The translations under genes and the position numbers were made by a program. Below, piece after piece: positions 3,567 through 47,916 of a stretch of DNA of 64,000 nt. This DNA comes from Paramarasmius palmivorus (Eukaryota > Basidiomycota > Agaricomycetes > Agaricales > Marasmiaceae). The notes under the pieces were generated by a model that did no database searches, had not been told where the DNA came from, and saw only the letters and a list, made by a program, of their open reading frames with translations. Within the stretch, counting starts at the first letter, position 1. Each line of letters begins with the position of its first letter. The stretch lies in assembly GCA_037176845.1 (NCBI GenBank), contig JAYKXP010000183.1:1-64000 (forward strand). The letters are read 5' to 3'.

Positions 3567-4149
3567 TCATGTTGCCAAACTCATCCCTAAAAACCCACGT
3601 TTCACAATCCCAGTGTACCCATTAACCATTTCATTCGACATGCTCAGAGGGCCATTGTACATGGTATGAATGGGCTTTTGAGCGTTGAGTTCGCGGAGCA
3701 CGATTCGAGCTTCTTCATCACCAGGCGCGACCGCCTTGTCGATCTCATCCTCGAGTAGGATATCTTGACGAGCCAGGATGCCTTCAGGTAAACGGGCCTT
3801 GACCGACTGGACCATCTCGGGATCTGTCTGGGTCAACGTAACATGCGCAACGAAGTCCATCGTGCGTTGAAGTTCGTCCTCCGTAATCCCTCGGTCAACA
3901 TCAGAGACACCTTGTATAACTAGGATACAAAAATGAGACGATACAAATACGAAAGAGACAGTTTGCTTACTGGGTCTGATCATGTCAAATGCATGGTCAA
4001 AGTTGTCTTCCGTTACCTCTTTCAGGACCGGGTAAGATTGGTTTCGAATCTGCTTATATGAGCCCATGACCACAAGCAAGAATCTAGAAAATGAAGTAAG
4101 TAGTTTTGAAGCGAGACGGGAGCACCTATGGATACCTAGTATACGAAGA
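3567..4149 (-). pseudogene. Flavin-dependent halogenase, 3' part (separated from its 5' part)
   Basis: This is the C-terminal portion of a fungal FAD-dependent halogenase, 159 codons in three exons: 4149-4136, 4083-3971 and 3919-3567. Both introns have GT-AG ends. The frame opens directly at the border with the insertion as S-S-Y-T-R-F-L-L and includes SYKQIRNQSYPVLKEV, a run I associate with the C-terminal region of basidiomycete (Armillaria-type) halogenases. There is no start codon or promoter context; the missing 374 codons are at 46416-47916 on the same strand. The joined length of 533 residues suits the family. As it stands this part cannot make an enzyme. Confidence 0.88.
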
Positions 4150-4192
4150 CTAGCTTGAATGGGTCGGCGGTTTCGCCGACCAGAACGAGTTC
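4150..4192 (-). other. Helitron 3' terminus: hairpin plus CTAG
   Basis: On the plus strand GGTCGGCG (4162-4169) and CGCCGACC (4174-4181) form a perfect 8-bp stem with a 4-base loop. Eight bases separate it from CTAG (4150-4153), the terminal tetranucleotide, and the next host base on the minus strand is T. Just inside lies the 11-mer AGAACGAGTTC (4182-4192), repeated near the other end of the element. Confidence 0.8.
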
Positions 4193-4328
4193 AAGTTCGC
4201 CTGTGGTGCGTTTTTTTTTTAGTTGTAATCGTTCGGGCCTAGATAGCTAGAGTAGTAAATAATACAAATCTTTTGTTTGACGCATGGGTTACAAGATACA
4301 CAAAAAATACTGCCCAACGAAAAGCTCC

Positions 4329-5333
4329 TCAATCCCGGCCGTAGCAAAGCGAAAGTATGTCGTCAATCAAGACGCTCAAATCGTCCAGTTGGGTTTCCGA
4401 CGCTTTACTGAGAGCGAAAAGTTCGGTATGCTTGGCCGAACCTGGGTTAGGAATGAGAAAAAACCGTAAAACGGCCAAAAGCGACACACGTACATCGATG
4501 ATTGAAGCATCGACGACGTACTCGCGTGTCTTCGTGAATGATATGTAAAATCCTCTCTGTATATTGTTAGAAACCCGAACGGAAAAAAGACAGAAAAGGA
4601 AAAGCTACTCACCGGTCCTCCTGATGTAGTTGACTCGAACCCAGCTCATGTTTTCGATCCGGGAACGAGCGTAGTGCCCTTGCCAGTACCGGATTCGCCC
4701 AGCAACGTCGTCAGAGCAGCCGATTTTCACTAGAGAAACGCCCCTTCTCGTTTCGGTGACTCTGAAGTGGTAAACCCAGCCGTCGGTTTCATCCGCGTGA
4801 AAAGCAGTCGTTATCTCCATCCCAATCTTGAAACGAGTGCGCCAGGTAAGAGAATTGAAGATCTTGATCGCGAAGATAACTTTAATGAGGAAGAAAACTC
4901 CCTTGACCGAGAGCAGAAGAACGAGGAGGCCCAAACCGACACTGAAAAATGAGACCATGATCTAAGTGGGTGCTTAGAGGGCGCGTGGGCGTGACGAGAA
5001 CCGCGAGAGCCTAGTTAGTGAGTATTCAACGATATTGAACAACCCATATCGAGTACTTACCGATGGCCGTGACAACTAATGTGATTGAAGCGTGTTGAGG
5101 CGACAATTGAAGCTGCGGTTGTTCTGAAAGTGTTGAACACCAGCAGAACTAAACGATGAGTAAATGCCCGACTAGGAAGGACTGAAACGCTTCCGGCGGA
5201 GAGCCTACACCTTCGTACCTCCTTCAAAGAAAATTCGTAAGAAAACAGTTGAAAATTTTTGGAAACACCAAAACGAACCTGATACAAAGGCTAGGTATAG
5301 AATTGGAAGAGTTGCCTCCAAAATGAAAGCCAT
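4329..5333 (-). CDS. Membrane-anchored protein with a possible GIY-YIG/T5orf172-like domain
   Basis: This is a multi-exon gene next to the element's 3' end. The first exon begins at 5333 with a hydrophobic stretch (MAFILEATLPILYLAFVS). A later exon (about 4963-4613) has a strong hydrophobic segment followed by GWVYHF, LVKIGCSDDVAGRIRYWQ. That pattern resembles the N-terminal half of T5orf172/GIY-YIG domains (aromatic-rich strand, then VKIG..DDV..R...W). The last exon runs from about 4556 to the TGA at 4329. I could not confirm the later catalytic Arg/Glu positions, so the domain call is tentative. Middle exon joins (5280-4965) are uncertain. Confidence 0.4.
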
Positions 5334-46075: not shown

Positions 46076-46383
46076 CGCACCAAAAAGAGAAGCGAAGACG
46101 GGACGTAGCTTTCAGAGTAAAACGCACCTCAACGGGACTACCACTCCTCATCCAGAATCCGACAGAGAAGCCTGAACGCTGGCAGGCGGAATAGCAAAAG
46201 AAGAAGAGAGCTTCAAAGAAGGCAGCCCGAACGCGGAGAAGAAAAAGCCATACGTGAGAAAACTTTCAAATAGACAGCCTCAAAGCCTTTCACCTACAAG
46301 AAACGTGCCTGAGAACATACCGGGGTTCTCGGGACAAAGCGTGGGACTTTCGAATAGACGGCTTCAAAAAAATCCACCCATAA

Positions 46384-46415
46384 AGAACGAGTTCTATTTC
46401 ATTACGAACTCGTAA
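46384..46415 (-). other. Element 5' terminus with stem-loop
   Basis: On the minus strand the element begins TT, then ACGAGTTC (46413-46406), an 11-base loop, and GAACTCGT (46394-46387), a perfect 8-bp stem. The 11-mer AGAACGAGTTC at 46384-46394 is identical and in the same orientation to 4182-4192. The terminal ACGAGTTC is thus found inverted near the 3' end, resembling the asymmetric terminal repeats described for Helentron/Helitron2 elements. The canonical TC start is absent. Confidence 0.55.
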
Positions 46416-47916
46416 CCCAACTTTAAGGTCATGAAATGCAGCAGCTTCAGATTCGGTACAATGTTGACGAATCGAAGCAGAAATGGTCACTGCTGCAGAC
46501 ATTGCACTGGCTAGTGCAAGGTGAACACTGAACAAAAAGCAATGATCATTATACAGCTGTTTTATCGGGAATGATGCATACCCAGAGCTGAAGAATGGGT
46601 CAATGAAAGCTAAACAAATGAATGAGATTTCTGTAGACCAAGTAAATGAATAAACCTCCACATGCCTGAAGCATCGCCAATGAGCCTGAAATGCTTCCCA
46701 GCATATTTATCGGCAGAGTAGCTGTAATCACTCGCTGACTGGACATCCGGTTTCCCGCGATTCACGACCAACTGCCCATTTTCGATGAGCTTCCTGAGAC
46801 CAGGACTGAATTTGAATTGGTCCATGTAATGCTCCTTCGTAGTGGATGACGTTCGTTTTTTCTCGTTACTAGTAGCCTGATCCATTACAAAGCCAACGGA
46901 CACAGTACCGTCGTGCAAAGGAATAAACCATGACCAACCACTTTCATCTGTAAGGATTATACCGTCAGTCAAGCTGTAAGAAGGTTGCAAATGCCTACCT
47001 GTCAACGCTTCAAACCAAGGTGCATTATGTCGAAGTGTACCAGGCATATACTGGCCTGTCCCAGACCAGTAGCCCCAGTATGCAATATTCTTCAGGCTTG
47101 AGTTCATGCGTCGATTCTTCAAGTACTTTGTGGACATGATACCCGCCCGTCCTGATGCATCGACCAAATAATCAAAAGTTATAGAACCTGTTTTGGAGTT
47201 TTGGATGTAATGCGCCCGAACCGGCCGTTCCCCTTCGAAATCGACACCGTTAACTCGAGTCTCCTCGAAAATGCAAGCGCCACTTTCAGCACTATGGCGG
47301 AGAAGAATCTCGTCAAATTCGGAGCGGACCTGGTTGTGAATCAACAGTGACAGACGAAACGACATTGAAGGAGCATACAACGTTCCAAGCTTTGTATTGT
47401 GGGTCGAGGTCGACGAAATCTGTATCTACGAGCAAGCATTAGACGATCACCATTCTTTCGGTCCAGTTTAGATCACCTACATCCTTCCCGATCAGATTGG
47501 CAAAACTTGACCGCTGCTCCGGGCTATCATTGGGTTAGTTTGGCTACAAAATGACATCGGGTCAGAAATACCTTGTACATAAATCCGTGTTGCTCGATCT
47601 TGTCCTTTGCACCTATGAACTCTAAAAACGGTGCTACAGAAGGGAGCATGCTCTCGCCAATGTGATACCTGACATAGAAACACTATCATACACTGGTGAA
47701 GACGAAGTTGTATTTTTGGGCTCACCTTGGGAACTTTGAGGCCTCCAGGACGCAAACTTCAAAGCCTTCTCGTGCTAAGGCTGAAGCTGCGTAGCTCCCA
47801 GAAGGTCCCCCGCCAATGACAAGGATCTGAACATGGGACGGCTGTGATAATTGCTGAGAGTAAAGAAGTAGTCCATGAAAAGTGTACAGGCGACATACTG
47901 GAATAGAATAGGCCAT
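46416..47916 (-). pseudogene. Flavin-dependent halogenase, 5' part (separated from its 3' part)
   Basis: Eight exons, 374 codons, all phases checked: 47916-47899, 47841-47726, 47668-47572, 47523-47481, 47425-47382, 47329-46666, 46609-46582, 46527-46416. The start MAYSIP leads to the FAD site VIGGGPSGSYAASALAREGF, then RYHIGESMLPS, GWSWFIP (the GWxWxIP motif that separates halogenases from monooxygenases) and LIGDASAFIDPFFSSGVHLA. Such enzymes chlorinate or brominate aromatic metabolites using FADH2 and halide. The intron at 46665-46610 has a GC-AG border. The coding part ends KVG at 46416, where the large insertion begins; read-through adds about 40 foreign residues. The C-terminal 159 codons are at 3567-4149. 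Confidence 0.9.

Follow-up and report, generated by a model that had tools for sequence, protein, structure and literature searches.

The 64,000-nucleotide stretch analysed here (positions 1 to 64,000 of contig JAYKXP010000183.1 of Paramarasmius palmivorus; hereafter the window) contains a halogenase gene whose two parts lie 42 kb apart. The DNA between them represents, with a probability of roughly 0.88, a 42,266-bp Helitron that harbors an open Rep-helicase frame of its own together with about a dozen more predicted genes and is likely to have entered the halogenase gene by rolling-circle transposition. The giant Helitron lineage is probably autonomous, and it probably represents a kind that is undescribed in the literature examined, which is cited throughout from titles, abstracts and extracts. 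The host is a basidiomycete that infects cacao (PMC11053350), and the genome searched was its assembly (G000; 68.3 Mb, 393 contigs), in which the window corresponds to contig C183.

Exact insertion into a halogenase gene

The insert and the two host pieces are located as follows.

46416..47930, minus strand: upstream (N-terminal) halogenase piece (Trp_halogenase match, RadH-like, alignment to a paralogue on contig C20)
4150..46415, minus strand: giant Helitron, 42,266 bp, 5' end at 46415 and 3' end at 4150 (ends common to other loci, colinear copy on contig C67)
3567..4149, minus strand: downstream (C-terminal) halogenase piece (alignment to the C20 paralogue, adjoining the upstream piece with no overlap)

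The initial annotation had placed both halogenase parts on the minus strand, the first ending with KVG at 46416 and the second beginning with SSYTRFLL at 4149. The borders read accordingly, with AAA GTT GGG as the 3' limit of the upstream piece at 46416 and TCT TCG TAT ACT as the 5' limit of the downstream piece at 4149. The closer of two C20 paralogues is continuous across the same point (AAG GTT GGA TCT TCG TAT ACT AG, then an intron beginning with GTAAAC), so that no base has been lost or duplicated at the join, as had been noted. Separate alignments to this paralogue, the check that had been proposed, identified the two pieces as adjoining, non-overlapping segments; the upstream nucleotide alignment begins at position 46417 and the downstream one ends at 4085, at an intron, and the 14 coding bases ahead of that intron were compared by eye. 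The equal distance of both pieces from the paralogue, with a proportion of synonymous differences (pS) of 0.68 and of non-synonymous differences (pN) of 0.13 upstream versus 0.66 and 0.10 downstream, argues for one gene, as had been supposed.

The Pfam family Trp_halogenase was matched by a frame of the upstream piece, whose best sequence match among solved structures is RadH, and no Pfam family was matched by the downstream piece alone. Two of the eight upstream alignment stretches carry one stop each, both located just inside an intron behind a GT donor that was read by eye. With the two border queries the assembly yielded only the two C20 paralogues, at 70-78% identity, and no intact allele of the split gene.

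In this assembly the insertion is exact, extends from 4150 to 46415 and lies inside the halogenase gene. A repeat family of this genome has its ends at these borders, which therefore reflect more than chance; the paralogue comparison, the family-wide termini and a second insertion with an empty-site control (see below) jointly uphold the single insertion with exact ends that had been proposed. The split might also be explained by a chimeric assembly, and the repeat does trouble the assembler, given that contigs C34 and C57 both break inside a second copy. However, the joints fall exactly on family ends and the host pieces are adjoining parts of one gene; the coincidence with the family ends led us to reject this extremely improbable explanation. 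The split halogenase is presumably non-functional, and the suggestion that the host allele is a natural knockout is reasonable. The locus provides a clean example of the effect of such an element on a biosynthetic gene.

Termini and target site

46387..46415, minus strand: 5' terminus TTACGAGTTCG with an 8-bp hairpin (fold z -3.7)
4150..4181, minus strand: 3' terminus, hairpin GGTCGGCG-AAAC-CGCCGACC, then CATTCAAGCTAG, next base T (fold z -3.7)

Read on the minus strand, the element begins with TTACGAGTTCGTAATGAAATAGAACTCGTTC at 46415 and finishes with GGTCGGCGAAACCGCCGACC-CATTCAAG-CTAG at 4150. Each terminus folds better than 200 of 200 shuffled sequences, and the 3' hairpin (4162-4181) finishes 12 nt ahead of the 3' end, whose last bases are CTAG. 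The ends also harbor an asymmetric inverted repeat, with ACGAGTTC at the 5' end and GAACTCGT 35 nt ahead of the 3' end. With up to two mismatches the 5'-end pattern occurs at 84 places of the genome (reversed control: 2), and the 3'-end pattern at 16 places (reversed control: 0). The family-wide borders consist of a purine directly ahead of TTACGAGTTCG and a T directly behind the hairpin and CATTCAAGCTAG: among the 34 five-prime ends whose flanks were read, 32 have a purine in front (17 G, 15 A) and two have a T, and T follows the 3' end in all 15 cases read among the 16. These counts indicate that the target is mostly a purine followed by T, and hence wider than the A-T dinucleotide. Textbook Helitrons insert between A and T and start with TC.

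The second copy is present with its 3' side on C34, which is 99.83% identical over 7,667 aligned positions (11 mismatches), and with its 5' side on C57, which is 99.15% identical over 8,463 aligned positions (16 mismatches, 56 gap positions). Both contigs start inside the element, and the DNA beyond its two ends comes from one tandem-repeat array. Undisrupted units of this array retain the empty site, for example GACTGATGAA directly joined to TATATGAATG, which documents an insertion between A and T with neither duplication nor loss. On contig C184 (locus L013) about 30 bp separate the 3' end of a related element from a second element's 5' end on the same strand; elements can thus insert almost end to end.

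Rep-helicase with a predicted peptidase tail

17479..25482, minus strand: Rep-helicase frame, open over 2,667 codons between two stops, start tentative (DUF6570, Helitron_like_N [HUH] and PIF1 helicase in Pfam)
17479..18279, minus strand: predicted USP/USPL1-like cysteine peptidase domain at the Rep-helicase C terminus (conserved residues, relative P0079, predicted fold)

The Rep and PIF1 domains reside in one open frame on the strand of the element. It contains HLHLLLW at residue 1062, YVTDY at residue 1271 and a Walker A motif at residue 1774; we take the first to be the HUH motif, the second to be the two-tyrosine motif and all three to be catalytic. The ratio of non-synonymous to synonymous substitutions (dN/dS) is 0.10 in comparison with the copy on C67, and the two best-matching relatives of the protein belong to Moniliophthora perniciosa (48% identity) and Tetrapyrgos nigripes (43%).

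A set of N, C, H and D residues is invariant among 13 aligned sequences of the C-terminal 265 residues. This domain alone matched no peptidase family in Pfam and no sequence in the PDB, and P0079, one of the four relatives scanned, matches Peptidase_C98 just below the cut-off. The predicted fold of the tail matches USP12, USP18, USP2 and USPL1 (E-values 1e-10 to 5e-9; query-normalised TM scores of about 0.4-0.47) in a model with a mean pLDDT (predicted local distance difference test) of 68.7, of which 24 of 27 ten-residue blocks from residue 111 on reach at least 70. Relatives and fold together predict a peptidase of the USP/USPL1 type, which may protect the transposition proteins from turnover.

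The size, the multi-gene load and the peptidase domain are reminiscent of giant elements in general, which raises the alternative that the insert is another type of giant mobile element or an integrated virus. The presence of a Rep/PIF1 transposase, the 3' hairpin with CTAG and the lack of a target duplication make this alternative barely credible. Moreover, the Rep-helicase patterns had no match in viral contigs, and a Pfam scan of the proteins from part of the gene models revealed neither a tyrosine recombinase nor a DNA polymerase domain. A plasmid collection contained no match to a 25 kb query, and tRNA and Rfam scans returned nothing. In a rolling-circle Helitron, Rep would nick at the 5' end (46415), the helicase would peel off the minus strand and the 3' hairpin would halt the process at CTAG (4150); the strand would then be pasted between a purine and T with the target left unduplicated.

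Size and gene order of related elements

Two further elements delimited by the same ends, each with a Rep-helicase inside, comprise 42,919 bp on C186 and 42,837 bp on C172 versus 42,266 bp in the window. A diverged copy on C67 has its 3' end at position 269579 and matches the window in the same order up to about 311,750, i.e. over about 42 kb and on both sides of the Rep-helicase; no 5' end was found on this contig before its end at 313,113. In a comparison of the window with this copy, pN (0.12-0.44) is lower than pS (0.30-0.82) in 15 of 15 coding blocks, with pS beyond saturation in 12 of them. Values of 0.00 for dN/dS in the block comparison reflect this synonymous saturation, and pN and pS are the informative measures.

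The 31 Rep-helicase loci (30 plus the window) were paired with a set of 54 five-prime ends (at most one mismatch, plus C172), and 18 of them have a 5' end on the proper strand, in 15 cases at a distance of 19.7-43.4 kb and in three at exactly 2,890 bp. One of these three loci, on C29, is a compact relative that comprises 9,235 bp if its 3' end is the first of the two hairpin-CTAG candidates, which is followed by T. An element on C35 has both ends but only 610 bp, so that giant, compact and tiny forms are present in one genome. A distance of 81,294 bp separates a 5' from a 3' end on C16, where we suspect nested giants.

An ordinary-sized Helitron within a pile of unrelated insertions and duplications might also reach 42 kb. 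The compact relative with the same kind of ends and the repeat-rich stretch with a copia fragment between 11.9 and 17.4 kb are compatible with such an origin. Nevertheless, three elements with independent flanks are almost equal in length, and the C67 copy agrees with the window in gene order, at low pN/pS, to either side of the Rep-helicase. The length constancy and colinearity led us to reject the nested pile-up, which is very unlikely.

Several observations nevertheless weigh against a giant Helitron that moves as a unit. Neither transposition nor a circular form nor a transcript was observed. The element starts with TT (TTACGAG) instead of the textbook TC and G precedes half of the 5' ends, so it is not a textbook A-T Helitron. 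The interiors of the elements on C186 and C172 were read in part, their bounds, lengths and Rep-helicases being established, and the middle of the second copy is unassembled, so that this copy is known from its ends only. As many as 13 of the 31 Rep loci lack a matching end in the 54-end set, and three of the 18 paired ones are compact. The 15 coding blocks were picked by protein-level similarity, a choice that favors low pN, and the C67 sequence set against one of them (g70) is a relative in another place. Finally, the block from 4149 to 6239 is 87-88% identical to C67, whereas the other nucleotide matches are mostly in the range of 65-72%, which indicates that 3' parts have been exchanged between lineages and that the whole did not always travel together.

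Cargo genes

The predicted genes are listed from the 3' to the 5' end of the element.

4257..6818, minus strand: 3'-arm coding block(s), one exon weakly T5orf172-like (Pfam E-value 0.01, below cut-off)
7663..8643, minus strand: conserved cargo gene g9 (gene model, C67 comparison)
9695..10399, minus strand: conserved cargo gene g10, resembling g70 at the opposite end (gene model, C67 comparison)
11169..11880, plus strand: Hsp20/alpha-crystallin-like cargo gene (PF00011 E-value 0.0002; conserved in C67)
11900..17400, no strand: dispersed-repeat-rich stretch including part of a copia reverse transcriptase (nested insertions are likely)
25692..29576, minus strand: large cargo gene, family unassigned (models g44 and g50; VNI00_017656; gene models, public record)
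29846..30773, minus strand: conserved cargo gene g53 (gene model, C67 comparison)
31231..33071, plus strand: F-box-like cargo gene (VNI00_017657; F-box-like start E-value 0.0026, below cut-off; C67 comparison)
33347..33990, minus strand: MYND-finger cargo gene (zf-MYND E-value 9.9e-6; C67 comparison)
34197..35561, minus strand: conserved cargo gene g58 (gene model, C67 comparison)
36983..38313, minus strand: conserved cargo gene g61 (gene model, C67 comparison)
41286..42357, plus strand: conserved cargo gene g65 (gene model, C67 comparison)
42685..43364, minus strand: conserved cargo gene g67 (gene model, C67 comparison)
45042..45753, minus strand: predicted cargo gene g70 near the 5' end (resembling g10; its C67 match is the g10 relative, in a different place)

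About a dozen conserved coding blocks are thus distributed on both sides of the Rep-helicase. The gene models are approximate, as the public record VNI00_017656 joins g44 and part of g50; models g1 and g2, which span the 4149/4150 border, were excluded, and small models opposite conserved frames are artefacts. The similarities that could be named (Hsp20, MYND finger, F-box-like, T5orf172) are modest. The related genes g10 (9695-10399) and g70 (45042-45753), near opposite ends of the element, probably arose by duplication within the cargo.

Both the large and the F-box-like cargo protein were searched against 5.8 billion database proteins, of which the candidates sharing most words with the query were scored. 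Apart from its own public record, the large cargo protein matches a single further P. palmivorus protein, encoded on C18. The F-box-like protein matches 19 P. palmivorus proteins (own record included), two of M. perniciosa and, distantly, one of Cubamyces; 14 of the 19 are encoded on contigs, identified by their length, that bear a Rep-helicase or a 5' end, and the contigs of the other five were not matched.

This distribution bears on the question of whether the cargo is a single host segment that was captured once by end bypass and now represents passenger DNA without function for the element. Helitrons are described to capture neighboring DNA (PMC6431247), the F-box, MYND and Hsp20 domains are of the eukaryotic type, and the second relative of the large cargo protein is found on a contig without a known element end (C18), where it could be a host copy. 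The low pN of all 15 blocks despite synonymous saturation in 12, together with the association of 14 F-box relatives with element contigs, makes such a capture unlikely. The gene set rather seems to be the element's own, and its genes may serve the spread of the Helitron instead of being chance captures.

Decay and strand composition

The 3' arms of two relics (loci L027 on contig C97 and L031 on C150) lack most of the CpG sites. On C97, 29 of 49 aligned CpG sites of the window have changed to TpG or CpA, and 35 of 44 on C150, in both cases with none in the reverse direction. The equivalent comparison with the C67 copy revealed 8 of 82 sites changed and 11 in the reverse direction. Over the 1.2 kb compared, the element of the window is therefore free of the methylation-type decay of the two relics.

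The strand composition, measured outside the Rep-helicase and the repeat-rich stretch, shows a gradient along the element. On the plus strand A exceeds T with AT skews of 0.33, 0.18 and 0.13 in three zones, strongest beside the 5' end, and C exceeds G on the 5' side with a reversal of sign toward the 3' end. The correlation with position amounts to r = -0.73 for the AT skew and +0.86 for the GC skew across 29 intervals of the window element, and to -0.63 and +0.84 across 34 intervals of the C67 copy, measured from the contig end; the skews of the flanks are near 0. At third codon positions the AT sign is the same throughout the 13 models compared, irrespective of the strand.

This gradient is consistent with C-to-T change on an exposed single strand. 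Three observations point in the other direction. On its own mobilised strand, the compact element on C29 has a T excess near its 5' end that is weaker than in the giant (0.14, 0.19, then 0.01 per kb), its C exceeds G near the 5' end, opposite to the giant element, and plus-strand genes of the giant show less third-position skew than most minus-strand genes. The compact relative hence does not confirm the explanation, and single-strand exposure is a possible cause of the gradient rather than a proven one.

Relationship to known elements

The element is placed in the Helitron superfamily on account of the fusion of Rep (HUH, two tyrosines) with a PIF1 helicase, the 3' hairpin followed by CTRR and the absence of a target-site duplication, which was documented by the C20 paralogue and the tandem-repeat empty site. 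It is neither a canonical Helitron1, because the 5'-TC start and the insertion between A and T are replaced by TTACGAG and a purine-T site, nor a Helentron, because no apurinic/apyrimidinic (AP) endonuclease domain was matched by Pfam in the Rep-helicase frame. In structural features alone it corresponds to Helitron2, having a hairpin at each end and terminal inverted repeats in asymmetric positions.

The extracts consulted give a size of 6-7 to 14 kb for fungal Helitrons and describe whole-gene capture by Helitrons as exceptionally rare (PMC6431247), and report fungal elements of up to 13.7 kb (PMC4289320). The element of the window is about three times longer than the former range. No fungal Helitron near 40 kb was recognised in the literature searched by title and abstract, a scope outside which preprints and most subscription papers fall.

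HELPO1 of Pleurotus ostreatus (PMC4289320) shares, according to the extract, the basidiomycete host, the Rep-helicase, the subterminal 3' hairpin, a CT[A/T]G end, the lack of a target duplication and extra 'captured' genes of obscure origin. However, HELPO1 elements span 1.5-13.7 kb, carry between one and four extra genes, encode a Rep-helicase of about 1,400 amino acids and use A-T sites. In P. palmivorus the size is 42-43 kb, the genes number about a dozen, the open frame has 2,667 codons and includes the predicted peptidase tail, and the sites are purine-T. The FoHeli elements (Helitron2) of Fusarium oxysporum are likewise described with hairpins at both ends and an asymmetric inverted repeat (here ACGAGTTC and GAACTCGT), but FoHeli1 and FoHeli2 measure about 5-6 kb and end with ATTTT instead of CTAG (PMC5148889). 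A deubiquitinase-type domain fused to the Rep-helicase is known from Helentrons with VTD or OTU deubiquitinases (PMC9741609, as excerpted), whereas a domain of the USP/USPL1 type is predicted for the tail found here, and an AP endonuclease was not matched. Comparable lengths of up to 39 kb are cited for maize Helitrons, which grow by capture of host gene fragments (PMC6431247); the predicted genes of the P. palmivorus element are, in contrast, colinear and constrained relative to a diverged copy. Starships are also large multi-gene cargo elements of fungi, but the available text has them move by a tyrosine recombinase 'captain' (PMC13066641), which was absent from the proteins scanned here.

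If the giant Helitron is confirmed, Helitrons become candidate carriers of large gene sets in basidiomycetes. Two questions would be testable in a single genome that contains the compact form as well, namely in what way a Helitron gains and retains a dozen genes, and what strand length rolling-circle transposition can move. A tentative extension, which we regard as possible but doubtful as a whole, is that giant cargo elements based on rolling-circle transposition, instead of a tyrosine recombinase, form a class of their own in mushroom-forming fungi. It would consist of 42-43 kb Helitrons with about a dozen element-owned genes under selection in deeply diverged lineages of one genome, be shared with at least one other genus (Moniliophthora) and move between genomes, and the T/G-rich gradient of the mobilised strand would record single-strand exposure during copying.

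Features flanking the split gene

The flanks of the halogenase gene contain additional repeats and transposon-like sequences. About two tandem copies of a 317-bp unit (48650-49333; 83-86% alike) are located just upstream of the gene. On the plus strand of the right flank, a CxC4 cysteine cluster is accompanied by part of a KDZ-like transposase (59949-61998; KDZ just below the Pfam cut-off), which places the halogenase locus near other transposon genes. A 55-bp inverted repeat at 1152-1909, 95% complementary and with a spacing of 648 bp, resembles a small terminal-inverted-repeat transposon. The plus-strand variant 5' end TTACGAATTCGACATGAAAT at 62898-62917 is found identically at several other places of the genome and possibly belongs to another Helitron family adjoining the locus.

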